Below, piece after piece: positions 15,278-29,861 of a stretch of DNA of 64,000 nt; the stretch's first letter is position 1; each line of letters starts with the position of its first letter. Origin of the DNA: Shewanella oneidensis MR-1. GTDB lineage: Bacteria > Pseudomonadota > Gammaproteobacteria > Enterobacterales > Shewanellaceae. The notes below the pieces were generated by a model that was not told where the DNA came from, did not search any database, and saw only the letters and a program-made list of their open reading frames with translations. Made by a program: the position numbers and the translations under genes. The stretch spans positions 3,100,001 through 3,164,000 of the forward strand of contig NC_004347.2 in assembly GCF_000146165.2 (NCBI RefSeq). Direction: 5' to 3'.

Positions 15278-15301
15278 AGCCACCTCCTAGGTGGCTTTTT
15301 T
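15278..15301 (+). terminator. Terminator of the cI operon
   Basis: Perfect stem AGCCACCT / AGGTGGCT with a 3-nt loop followed by TTTTTT, 24 bp after the last gene of the cI operon. It separates the lysogen-expressed unit from the PL promoter. Confidence 0.9.
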
Positions 15302-15372
15302 GTATCTGCACAAACCAAAAAATCACGAAGCGAAAAGAATCGAATCGTTTTGAACACACTAAAATAAAAAAT

Positions 15373-15415
15373 AAACACATTTCGTGTTGACAAAAGAAAC
15401 ACAAAGCGTGATTAT
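15373..15415 (+). promoter_or_regulatory. Phage PL promoter with two operators
   Basis: TTGACA at 15387-15392, a 17-bp spacer and GATTAT at 15410-15415 form a near-consensus sigma70 promoter. Two operator copies overlap it: AAACACATTTCGTGTTG (15373-15389) covers the -35 and AAACACAAAGCGTGATT (15397-15413) covers the -10. Both match the perfect operator beside cro, so repressor bound here would silence the plus-strand early operon. Confidence 0.85.
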
Positions 15416-15424
15416 CCAGCCATC

Positions 15425-15455
15425 GGTTAGCGAAAACTAATCACGCTCTTTAACA
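15425..15455 (+). promoter_or_regulatory. rrn-like boxB-boxA antitermination site
   Basis: GGTTAG / CTAATC forms a 6-bp stem (one G-U) around the loop CGAAAA (15425-15442), a boxB-like hairpin. It is followed by CGCTCTTTAACA (15444-15455), matching the boxA consensus of E. coli rRNA leaders (GCTCTTTAACA) that binds NusB/S10. The order boxB then boxA is that of rrn operons, not of lambda nut sites. It starts about three nucleotides into the predicted PL transcript. Confidence 0.75.
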
Positions 15456-15884
15456 GACTGGCCCATGAACAACTAACCTTGGTCCCCTCGTATGTGAGGC
15501 TACCAAGCTAGGTTACTCCGAGGAACACGCGGCGGAGGATAGTAATCCGCGTAAACAGACCTATACACCGCTATTGGCGACCGGACTGTTTGAGTGGGAA
15601 GAGCCCATAAGAACAGGTACTAAATGGTTTCACTGCGAGCATGACCCAAATATGTGTATAGCCCCGCCCGTTCTGGCGGTGAGGTAAGAACACCATGCAC
15701 CTGTTTAATCAGGTTGCATTGGGAAAGTGGCTGAATAGTAAGACTCGACTACCGATTGAGCCAACCGTGGTGCTATAGGCTCCACCCTTTCGGTAACTGG
15801 AAATGAGCGCCAGTCAGCCACCTTCACCAATGCGACTTATAAGCCAGCCTGCGGCATCGACAGGCAAAAACTTGAGGATATGAA
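15456..15884 (+). ncRNA. Candidate long structured RNA leader of the PL operon
   Basis: About 430 nt without a convincing gene, holding a series of exact helices: 15474-79/15510-15 with inner 15480-83/15502-05 and 15486-89/15496-99; 15527-32/15547-52; 15586-90/15612-16 with 15595-98/15604-07; 15664-68/15675-79; 15695-703/15710-19 (one bulge); and a three-way junction at 15727-15821. A final hairpin GCCTG/CAGGC is at 15847-15865. No T-run follows any of them. It may extend the antitermination site, be processed into an RNA, or control translation of the 62-residue gene. Confidence 0.65.
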
Positions 15885-16073
15885 ATGAAAAAAAATATTT
15901 TAGCTATTGCTGCATCAATGATTATGGCTGGGCAAGCTCCATCATTCTATATGCAAAATGAAGTTCGCCAAACTTTGGCCTACAGAAGTACAAAACGCAA
16001 AATTAGCGGAAAGCCAGCTACAAAAGGGAAGCGTCATGCCTCGCTTAAGTCTCGTGCAAACCGTCGCAAATAG
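15885..16073 (+). CDS. Small basic protein, first gene of the PL operon (62 aa)
   Basis: The N-terminus (MKKNILAIAASMIMAGQAPS) reads like a short signal or membrane segment. The remaining 40 residues are very basic (RSTKRKISGKPATKGKRHAS, then a final NRRK). TTGAGGA lies upstream of the ATG. It occupies the position of lambda N and has an Arg/Lys-rich part, but the rich part is C-terminal and the N-terminus is hydrophobic, so N function is not supported. Unknown. Confidence 0.55.
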   Translation: MKKNILAIAASMIMAGQAPSFYMQNEVRQTLAYRSTKRKISGKPATKGKRHASLKSRANRRK

Positions 16074-16112
16074 GTTTTACAGCTGGCTCTTGCGAGAGCT
16101 AGCGATAAAACC
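16073..16112 (+). other. Strong RNA hairpin between first PL genes
   Basis: Outer helix GGTTTTA / TAAAACC (16073-79/16106-12) encloses GCTGGCTCT / AGAGCTAGC (one G-U) capped by TGCG (16082-16103). It starts over the stop codon of the basic protein and ends 22 nt before the methyltransferase start. No U-run follows, so it is not an intrinsic terminator; an RNA processing or translation-control element is possible. Confidence 0.6.
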
Positions 16113-16134
16113 AACTAATAGATAAGGATAAACA

Positions 16135-16878
16135 ATGAGAGTTGAAAACGATGTACTTGCTGTACTGAGTCGCGCAGAGGTGAGCGGTAATGCACTGGTG
16201 CTTACTGGTCAACTTGACCGAAAGATGTACGAGCGCACAAACAAAGTAATTGAAGCGGCTGGCGGAAAGTGGAACCGAAAAACTAAATCACACATATTCG
16301 ACGATGAAGCCGCTACGCGAGTGGACCAAATTATTCTGACAGGTGAAGTCGAAATCCCTAAAGACGAATTTAATTTTTTCCCGTCACCTCCTTCTGTTGT
16401 GGCGCGGTTAATGGAATTGGCAGATGTGCAGCATGGTATGAAGGTGCTAGAACCTAGCGCTGGAAAAGGCGCAATTGCCTACGCTTGCGCTAACGCTGGG
16501 GCAACTGTCGATTGCTACGAACTAATGGAATCCAACTTCTTAACCCTATACGGAGATTCTCGCCTAGGAGTGGTTCGTCACATGGATTTTCTAACGCAAA
16601 CGCCAGAGAAACTTTATGAGCGTGTTGTGATGAACCCTCCATTTCTCAAGCAAGCAGATATCCGGCATGTACTTCATGCAGTGAACTTTCTCAAGCCTGG
16701 AGGCTTGCTCGTTTCTGTGATGGCGGCGAGCGTCACATTCAGAGATAACAAATTAACACAGGACTTCCGCGATTTAATATTTCACCGAGGAGGGAATATA
16801 GAGCCACTTCATAACGGTGCATTTAAAGAGTCAGGAACGATGGTTAGGTCGGTAATTGTGACAATACAAAATAAGTAA
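16135..16878 (+). CDS. Phage N6-adenine-type DNA methyltransferase
   Basis: 247 residues. A short N-terminal module (residues 1-75) is followed by a Rossmann methyltransferase fold with motif I EPSAGKG (106-112) and catalytic motif IV NPPF (167-170), the signature of amino-methyltransferases. The order motif I then NPPF is gamma-like. It probably methylates adenine in phage DNA to escape restriction; the target site is unknown. SD-like AAGGATAA precedes the ATG. Confidence 0.82.
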   Translation: MRVENDVLAVLSRAEVSGNALVLTGQLDRKMYERTNKVIEAAGGKWNRKTKSHIFDDEAATRVDQIILTGEVEIPKDEFNFFPSPPSVVARLMELADVQHGMKVLEPSAGKGAIAYACANAGATVDCYELMESNFLTLYGDSRLGVVRHMDFLTQTPEKLYERVVMNPPFLKQADIRHVLHAVNFLKPGGLLVSVMAASVTFRDNKLTQDFRDLIFHRGGNIEPLHNGAFKESGTMVRSVIVTIQNK

Positions 16879-17167
16879 TAACACCAGCCTGCGGCACCAG
16901 CAGGCAAGTAACAGAGGACAAGCCCATGTGACTAACTAGCCGTTAGAAGCGGCCACTTACACGCGCAGGTTATGACTGCGCCCCGAGTATCCATGTCGAT
17001 AGCCAGCTTTGGATCTGGTTAGGGTTAATAAACAAGGGCCCACTGGTAAAGCAGCGCGAACGCCTGAAAGTCGCGCACCAGTTATTAGCGGCAAGATTGC
17101 TGCAGATGACGTGTTCAGGCCGCCGGATGACGTAACCGGCACCGTTTACACCGCAGGGAGCAATACT
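16879..17167 (+). ncRNA. Second candidate structured RNA in the PL operon
   Basis: 289 nt with no convincing gene. Exact helices include GCCTG/CAGGC (16887-91/16901-05), GCGCAG/CTGCGC (16963-68/16976-81), AGCCAG/CTGGTT (17001-06/17015-20), a long nested hairpin ACTGGT/ACCAGT (17042-47/17077-82) enclosing GCGCGA/TCGCGC (17054-59/17071-76), and GCCGG/CCGGC (17122-26/17136-40). The first hairpin repeats the one at 15844-15867 nearly exactly, linking the two leaders. Confidence 0.55.
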
Positions 17168-17245
17168 ATGAAAGCCCAACAACCTGATTTTATCGACCTA
17201 GTGCTAATGCTATTAGCTAAGTTAATCCCCTTCGACTTGTTCTAA
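17168..17245 (+). CDS. Candidate 25-residue hydrophobic peptide
   Basis: ATG with GGGAG eight bases upstream opens a 25-codon frame: a polar start MKAQQPDFID, then LVLMLLAKLIPFDLF, an amphipathic or membrane helix. It follows the second structured RNA directly. Small membrane peptides are common in phage early operons. Support is the ribosome binding site and composition only. Confidence 0.45.
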   Translation: MKAQQPDFIDLVLMLLAKLIPFDLF

Positions 17246-29673: not shown

Positions 29674-29730
29674 ATGACTCAGATTAACGCTTCTTTCAAC
29701 ATCATTTGGTGGTGGCACTTCCCAACTTAG
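29674..29730 (+). CDS. trpL: trp leader peptide
   Basis: An 18-codon peptide MTQINASFNIIWWWHFPT with three consecutive Trp codons (TGG TGG TGG), the sensor of charged tRNA-Trp. Ribosome stalling at these codons controls attenuation of the downstream biosynthetic genes. Confidence 0.95.
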   Translation: MTQINASFNIIWWWHFPT

Positions 29731-29806
29731 CGGGTAGTGTGAAGCTCTGTGCTCATTTGAAAGTAACAGAATCAACAGAAAAGCCCGCAGAAATGCGGGC
29801 TTTTTT
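29716..29806 (+). promoter_or_regulatory. trp attenuator
   Basis: Pause hairpin 1:2: CACTTCCC (29716-23) with GGGTAGTG (29732-39). Antiterminator 2:3: GCGGGT (29730-35) with GCCCGC (29783-88), one G-U. Terminator 3:4: AGCCCGCA (29782-89) with TGCGGGCT (29794-801) followed by TTTTT. All three exclusive pairings expected of a Trp attenuator can be drawn. Confidence 0.93.
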
Positions 29807-29861
29807 GTTGGTGCGAAAAATGTCTGCAACGCGGTAAACGGATAAAAAGCGAGATAACAGC

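Follow-up and report, generated by a model that had tools for sequence, protein, structure and literature searches.

Processive antitermination directed by RNA at the head of an operon has been described for a small number of phages and other mobile elements. The put RNA of phage HK022 acts on both the PL and the PR transcript and needs no phage protein (PMC9378689). In rRNA operons the NusB-S10 complex binds boxA and prevents Rho-dependent termination, as stated in PMC10931766, and the mEp phages of immunity group I are summarised as carrying an N-like protein together with nut sites (PMC11893012). At the head of conjugation operons, conAn of pLS20 combines an RNA and a protein (PMC8955417), and canT of Tn916 forms a precedent for RNA-based antitermination at such places (PMC11658703). 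The eps-associated RNA (EAR) of Bacillales is named there as a case of processive antitermination by RNA only, in other hosts. The structure of EAR differs from that of the RNA described here, and the window copy of the latter has no Rfam match to it.

The RNA described here lies in a prophage of Shewanella oneidensis MR-1 which we take to be LambdaSo. The window, i.e. the whole stretch of DNA analysed, comprises 64,000 nucleotides (NC_004347.2, positions 3,100,001 to 3,164,000); window coordinates are given below, and the promoter, the RNA and the first ORF after it are on the plus strand. A PL-type sigma-70 promoter, TTGACA-17-GATTAT, is located at 15387-15415 and matches the consensus at 10 of 12 positions, in agreement with the near-consensus PL promoter reported in the initial annotation. 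A 5' stem-loop (GGTTAG-CGAAAA-CTAATC, 15425-15442) precedes boxA (CGCTCTTTAACA, 15444-15455), so the rRNA-like order of hairpin and boxA noted earlier was confirmed. The last 11 bases of this boxA are identical to the boxA of the host rRNA leaders. The 11-mer, GCTCTTTAACA, occurs 13 times in the window's genome: in nine rRNA leaders, once here and at three other places. Eight of the nine leader copies precede a 16S gene found with Rfam and the ninth was assigned by the same leader sequence; by eye, a CTCAG...CTGAG stem is seen just 5' of boxA in six of the nine. Since the 11-mer is present in nine host rRNA leaders and a stem-loop lies ahead of boxA, the label 'rrn-type' is apt.

The locus shares features with each of the known systems and differs from each. 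As in the rRNA leader, a hairpin precedes a boxA with the host 11-mer in the window; unlike in the rRNA leader, pseudoknot modules and protein-coding operons come next, not rRNA. The place after PL and the boxA are as in the lambda nut site, but the hairpin, where present, precedes boxA, whereas in lambda it follows boxA. Like HK022 put, it is an untranslated RNA at the PL head of a lambda-like phage with no dedicated protein in sight. However, put is given in PMC9378689 as an RNA of ~70 nt with two stem-loops and copies on both PL and PR, whereas here a boxA-led core of ~250 nt contains one or two pseudoknots. The search of the PR side yielded no copy, and the RNA occurs on plasmids too. A position at the head of conjugation operons is shared with conAn (pLS20-type) and canT (Tn916); processive antitermination is described for these two and would be their counterpart here. 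Their hosts are Gram-positive, conAn needs the protein ConAn1, and a boxA-led pseudoknot RNA is mentioned for neither in the portions of the two accounts available.

The promoter region of the E. coli phage mEp213 is 82% identical to window 15380-15424 (45 bp). Behind this similar PL promoter, mEp213 carries a nutL-like boxA-boxB stretch (recognised by eye) and an annotated N gene, which argues that the boxA-led RNA holds the place of nutL and N. Two genes in the one PL operon of mEp213 (L145, 4375-4707 and 5860-6132) are annotated as antitermination protein N. Neither mEp213 nor ECP1 was kept as a member of the RNA family, as their short matches in the first search cover the promoter/operator only.

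Comparison of related sequences established that window 15444-15691 is a structured RNA with a conserved core of ~250 nt, led by boxA. The core consists of two modules, A (P1 and PK1) and B (P4, with PK2 in part of the members). In module A, a strand of the ATGAACGACT type after boxA is highly conserved in the alignment. The conserved strand CCCATGAACAACTAA is located at 15462-15476, and its AAC (GAC elsewhere) pairs with a GTT (GTC) after P1 in 97.6% of the cells of alignment A1. P1 is a variable hairpin, CTTGG...CCAAG (15478-15507), with double changes at 5 of 5 pairs and 75.1% of cells paired; its outermost pair is broken in 24 of the 41 module-A sequences, and it is looser than PK1. PK1 (15516-15552) is an H-type pseudoknot in which CTCCG/CGGAG is interleaved with ACGCGG/CCGCGT. 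Both of its stems are paired in 100% of the letter-letter cells (n = 41), with double changes at 5 of 9 counted pairs, and reading by eye gave the stem variants GCCCG/CGGGC, CACCG/CGGTG and CCCCA/TGGGG in distant members. The evidence for PK1 is the 41-sequence alignment together with this reading by eye, as the automatic parse misassigned many rows because of its distance limits. Structure-wide covariation of module A was 0.443 versus 0.162 in shuffles, a value reached by 0 of 500 shuffles, and controls with the structure slid along the alignment gave at most 0.138 (n = 41). The number of further pair types did not separate from shuffles (264 of 500 reached the observed count).

Module B starts with AACAGACC, the 5' strand of P4 (CTATACAC, 15561-15568) and GGCGACCGG (15576-15584), together spanning 15554-15584 in alignments A1 and A3. 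A variable internal domain (15585-15636, A3) is followed at 15637-15661 by the conserved GAGCATGACCC and the 3' strand of P4 (GTGTATAG, 15654-15661). Both GGCGACCGG and a GAATGACCC-like strand are highly conserved in the module B alignment. In P4, double changes were found at 7 of 8 pairs and 87.4% of cells are paired (n = 55, fixed register). PK2 (15664-15691), present in part of the family only, is an H-type pseudoknot of CCGCC/GGCGG interleaved with GTTCT/AGAAC; the second stem also occurs as CCATC/GATGG, GGTTATC/GATAACC, TGTCTC/GAGACA, GTTTC/GAAAC, GGTCTT/AAGACC and others. All five PK2 pairs show double changes and 70.9% of cells are paired (n = 55, fixed register), and register shifts account for part of the 26 of 55 rows in which the first pair is broken. 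Covariation of module B was 0.435 versus 0.177 in shuffles, with 0 of 500 shuffles reaching this value and the best slid control at 0.180 (n = 55). Further pair types (reached by 70 of 500 shuffles) and doubly changed pairs (146 of 500) gave no separation.

Alignment A3 was made from 295 loci by removing 8 second copies, 23 loci without GGCGACC, 100 without CCGC..GGCGG and 109 redundant sequences, leaving 55. It is therefore selected for the PK2 motif (P5), since loci without CCGC..GGCGG after GACC were dropped. By this motif rule, the CCGC..GGCGG of PK2 is absent from the expected place in 100 of 264 loci with GGCGACC, among them L005, L014, L018 and the Pseudomonas members L078, L137 and L142. 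Hence the core is firm for PK1 and P4, and PK2 characterises only part of the family. Strands were also swapped between members, with 67 members yielding 61 P4 and 52 PK2 parses (41 and 38 distinct strand pairs, respectively). Swapping lowered the mean stem score from 17.8 to ~10.4 for P4 and from 13.05 to ~9.2 for PK2, and 0 of 10000 permutations reached the observed value in either case. In 28 of 41 (P4) and 19 of 38 (PK2) strand pairs, no other partner scored better than the own one.

An accessory domain, present in a Shewanella-type subset, lies within the last ~190 nt before the first gene. Its long helix, GCATTGGGAAAGTG...CACCTTCACCAATGC (15716-15833), is outside the conserved core and was detected in 17 of 287 loci, a count that includes redundant copies; 3 of these 17 have a compensatory GCAG/CTGC version. 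Folding of the single sequence exceeded chance only slightly (z -1.97; 2 of 100 shuffles folded equally well), so the main support for the structure is comparative. There is no sense ORF of at least 40 aa between boxA and the ATG at 15885, and a protein-coding explanation of the region was rejected on this ground. The initial annotation had described ~430 nt of exact helices without a gene. The absence of a gene and the folding hold, and the compensatory changes that it proposed to look for are present in PK1, P4 and PK2; the conserved part, however, is the core of ~250 nt, and 15716-15833 is accessory only.

These results bear on the simplest explanation of the locus, an ordinary boxA leader in which boxA alone works against Rho, as in the rRNA leaders, and the remainder is spacer or a mosaic scar. 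It would fit with boxA being the sole part kept nearly everywhere (see below), but PK1, P4 and PK2 are maintained by compensatory change across Shewanella, Vibrio and Pseudomonas, which is not expected of a spacer, and we regard this explanation as very improbable.

The RNA has relatives in phages and prophages of Shewanella, Vibrio and Pseudomonas, and ten plasmid records carry relatives as well. When 129 genomes from the window's genus were searched at the DNA level, the kind of comparison suggested earlier, six (the window's own included) gave matches, ranging from relatives with 72-90% identity to short pieces, and a search of a plasmid collection gave a match in p48 of Vibrio tubiashii. 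A pattern derived from the alignment matched 23 viral contigs. With a second pattern 43 genome contigs were matched, of which 12 (Vibrio, Pseudomonas and Shewanella) were true members as judged by an upstream boxA and a ATGAACGACT-like strand; the other 31 were chance matches. Covariance model R1, which covers the 5' part, matched 9 of the 129 genomes of the window's genus (the own genome, with a single copy, included) and 13 of 227 genomes in the genus of G396, a genome whose contigs match V. tasmaniensis plasmids. Across 369 genomes spread over the class, under the strict filters of the wide scans, R1 matched only the window's own genome. Three queries matched 27, 26 and 26 of 50,697 phage records; these were largely the same records and nearly all from Pseudomonas, including phages of P. 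aeruginosa, P. syringae and P. fluorescens. The Vibrio query had no match among the phage records and the module-B query matched 0 of 20,395 E. coli records. Scans of viral contigs, one per module, each gave at least 120 matches. Three matches of the module-A viral scan (L154, L202 and L215) were rejected as chance, and L372 was rejected as a false positive of R2: it has no boxA within 2 mismatches and gives the impression of coding sequence.

No Rfam 15 family matched window 15300-16000 at E ≤ 1. For six loci with other members, five Rfam matches were listed (E ≤ 0.5) and none overlaps the RNA; the nearest, P9, is below its gathering score, ends ~80 nt from the RNA and is on the other strand. 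No description of a boxA-led RNA of this kind was found in the literature searched, mainly open-access journals. This is thus a real and large RNA family without an Rfam match. The earlier suggestion of a new phage ncRNA stands as far as the Rfam search of the window copy goes, but it was too narrow, because conjugative plasmids carry the RNA as well. Other Rfam matches in these sequences were a Trp_leader at window 29701-29808 (+), outside the phage early region (42.1 bits, gathering score 41), a Proteo-phage-1 RNA in the PL operon of phage PS-1 (L138, 8971-9050, +) and an RT-15 RNA in the P. fuscovaginae locus (L078, 258-441, -).

The make-up of the family is modular. By loose motif rules, which make the numbers approximate, 117 of 287 loci contain modules A and B, 119 only B, 47 only A and 4 neither. 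BoxA followed by module B only is found in several Pseudomonas phages and boxA followed by module A only in L117 and L125; in VW-6S module B is truncated. Either module thus occurs alone, and boxA is nearly always retained. It was found in 48 of the first 48 family members (up to 3 mismatches allowed) and, allowing up to 2 mismatches, within 130 nt upstream of 113 of the 118 module-B matches listed, versus 39 of 2111 random 130-nt stretches from the same loci; the module-B scan pattern itself contains no boxA. The remaining five listed matches have CTCTTTACACA or CTCTTTATACA at the place of boxA. BoxA is the only part that is kept nearly everywhere, whether module A, module B or both come next. 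A stem-loop before boxA is common but not universal, and its sequence is free: counting hairpins that end within 5 nt of boxA, a score of at least 12 was reached in 62 of 148 non-redundant upstream stretches versus 15% of shuffles. The hairpin labelled boxB in the initial annotation is therefore present in the window, but its sequence is not conserved in the family.

In the phages, a same-strand repressor gene precedes the RNA in the window, in five prophage loci of the genus Vibrio and in 9 of 11 inspected phage records, including LESphi3, phi2, TC7, phiPSA1 and PS-1. Gene names were uninformative in SC_8, which is unannotated, and zjk6. In 8 of the 11 records the RNA and the next annotated gene share a strand; the exceptions are PseuP_222, UFJF_PfDIW6 and SC_8. 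Three records count against an antitermination function: PseuP_222 has its next annotated gene on the opposite strand, the RNA of UFJF_PfDIW6 is overlapped by a gene annotated on the other strand, and in VW-6S a single integrase gene follows the RNA before the strand changes. On the opposite (cro/PR) side, 7 boxA matches (up to 1 mismatch) were found in 789 kb from 164 loci, which is about the number expected by chance according to simple arithmetic, in line with the earlier failure to see a similar site on the cro transcript. The lack of a PR-transcript site also counts against antitermination, as lambda and HK022 have one site per early transcript.

The first ORF after the RNA in the window (15885-16073) encodes 62 aa, has no PHROG match and is missing from the corresponding place in L002 and L007. 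A (GC)CAGCCTGCGGC...CAGGC-like element occurs in two copies (15843-15865 and 16883-16905), one on either side of the two ORFs at 15885-16878. As the sequences on the outer flanks are contiguous in L002 and L007, these two ORFs look like an insert. A hairpin, AGGTTTTACAGCTGGCTCT...AGAGCTAGCGATAAAACC (16072-16112, +), is located ~20 nt before the ORF at 16135, and the same hairpin type is found directly after the RNA core in L004, L005, L014, L018, L023 and others. A second long inverted-repeat stretch (CTAACTAGCCGTTA...), also present in L002 and L007, covers window 16900-17180 (+) and may be another structured RNA on the same transcript.

In the plasmids, all 9 records inspected (of the 10) have same-strand conjugation genes downstream of the RNA, of the F-type tra, P-type trb or VirB-type kind. 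It is found between traY and traA, together with a small ORF, in V. tasmaniensis p1 and p2 (twice) and in Vibrio sp. J383, before trbB in two S. baltica plasmids and those of S. xiamenensis, S. khirikhana and LC6, and between traY and virB2 in p48. V. tasmaniensis p2 (NZ_AP025513.1; L373 and L388) contains two F-type tra sets, each headed by a gene with a TraY domain and a copy of the RNA, and long tra gene sets follow both copies. In the Vibrio plasmids the RNA comes after traY and not directly behind a promoter, which counts against antitermination. In six trb-type and two F-type plasmid loci (L040, 2432-3370, -; L037, 3224-4063, -; and relatives), a divergent gene upstream of the operon that the RNA heads encodes a protein of ~280-310 aa without a Pfam match. 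A gene of the ProQ/FinO family lies upstream of the RNA-headed trb operon in pSTH1 of S. khirikhana (L041, 4776-5297, -).

The plasmid loci bear on the question whether the RNA works in trans, as an early ncRNA directed for instance at a host defence system or a host RNA-binding protein, with boxA merely shielding the transcript from Rho. Any long untranslated RNA would gain from a boxA, and the high conservation of the ATGAACGACT, GGCGACCGG and GAATGACCC motifs, as well as the modular make-up, would suit such an RNA. On the other hand, a trans-acting RNA would not have to precede conjugation genes on the same strand in every inspected plasmid, to head the mating-pair-formation genes there or to be present in two copies on p2, one for each tra set. 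Furthermore, no conserved terminator was noticed by eye after the core, p48 being the one with a terminator-like hairpin and T run, between the RNA and virB2. We consider a function in trans unlikely.

Somewhat less likely still, in our opinion, is a leader that acts on translation or on the stability of the mRNA, or that senses the state of Nus factors or of the host, with no part in antitermination (a riboswitch-like or RNase III-type leader). The RNA is indeed a 5' leader, and the window operon has more hairpins just before start codons. However, the gap between the RNA and the first gene ranges from none or a few nt in phi2 and TC7, as annotated (the first protein of TC7 matches its PHROG only from residue 30, which qualifies that distance), to 193 nt in the window. 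Different families are represented among the first genes tested, a shared expression platform was not noticed, and such a leader would leave boxA without a clear role.

A protein that might act together with the RNA was sought near 48 loci (ORFs of at least 40 aa, BLAST E ≤ 1e-6), and none is common to all six carrier classes. The broadest cluster, helix-turn-helix repressors, covers 33 loci and five classes, with one member in each of the two plasmid classes. Other clusters shared by phages and plasmids were ORFs over the RNA itself or genes that only some carriers share, such as those for single-strand binding protein and DNA adenine methylase. Unlike in the lambda nut/N system, none of 10 first genes downstream of the RNA gave a match to a family described as N. 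Three of the ten matched no family, so an unrecognised antiterminator protein may exist.

Intrinsic terminators downstream of the RNA are sparse. In a first count on 36 loci, 26 sense and 17 antisense sites were found, and none downstream in the window (9 kb) and in the F-type operons L036 (7.0 kb) and L037 (5.0 kb). In a second count on 58 phage loci (261 kb per side), 33 terminator-like sites were present on the sense strand after the RNA versus 14 on the antisense strand and 14 on the PR side, a difference in the expected direction. In the upstream flank, the same strand holds 108 sites, which greatly exceeds the 33 downstream; the upstream sites are probably the ends of repressor operons. 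Both the sparseness downstream and the excess upstream count against antitermination. As the first count was weak and the second is suggestive only, the case for antitermination was not rested on terminators.

Taken together, the position at the head of unrelated long operons, a boxA of the rrn type, the conservation of the fold, the absence of a protein common to the carriers and the replacement of nutL and N lead us to think it probable, with considerable room for doubt, that this RNA family, located at or near the head of long phage and plasmid operons, is a cis-acting processive antitermination element that uses host factors only. That modules A and B are each absent in some members, that PK2 is not universal and that a single sequence folds just slightly better than shuffles also count against such a function. 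A put-like but larger antitermination element had been proposed earlier for the window; on the grounds of boxA, the covarying fold and the position it is the best-supported reading, with the differences that plasmids carry the element too and that its core is ~250 nt.

If the RNA is a cis-acting antitermination element, its action could proceed as follows. RNA polymerase leaving PL, from a predicted start site, would transcribe boxA almost at once. By its identity to the rRNA boxA, and in view of established rrn and lambda biology, boxA would be bound by NusB/S10 as on rRNA, giving a Nus-modified, Rho-resistant complex. The RNA would then fold into module A (P1 and PK1) and/or module B (P4 and in part PK2), folds that are supported by covariation. 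The folded RNA may be retained on the elongation complex, as put RNA is, and would replace the phage N protein; terminator readthrough by put depends on the beta' zinc-binding domain of RNA polymerase. The modified polymerase could then pass terminators and untranslated stretches in the PL genes of the phages and the tra or trb genes of the plasmids.

A further step is to see the family as an RNA 'antiterminator kit', consisting of the host rrn boxA and two exchangeable modules, that has moved between lambda-like phages and unrelated conjugative plasmids and renders polymerase resistant to terminators with the help of host factors only; we would give this proposal about even chances. If true, Gram-negative mobile elements would possess an RNA-only, boxA-dependent counterpart of lambda N, with a folded RNA in the role of N within the Nus complex. 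RNA-based processive antitermination is known from few systems. The family joins boxA/Nus biology, put-like RNAs and the control of plasmid transfer, and it is present in a model prophage. Its natural set of module combinations (A only, B only, A and B) offers material for studying how an RNA can stand in for N. The family could also account for the full transcription of long tra operons and of phages without a recognisable N gene.
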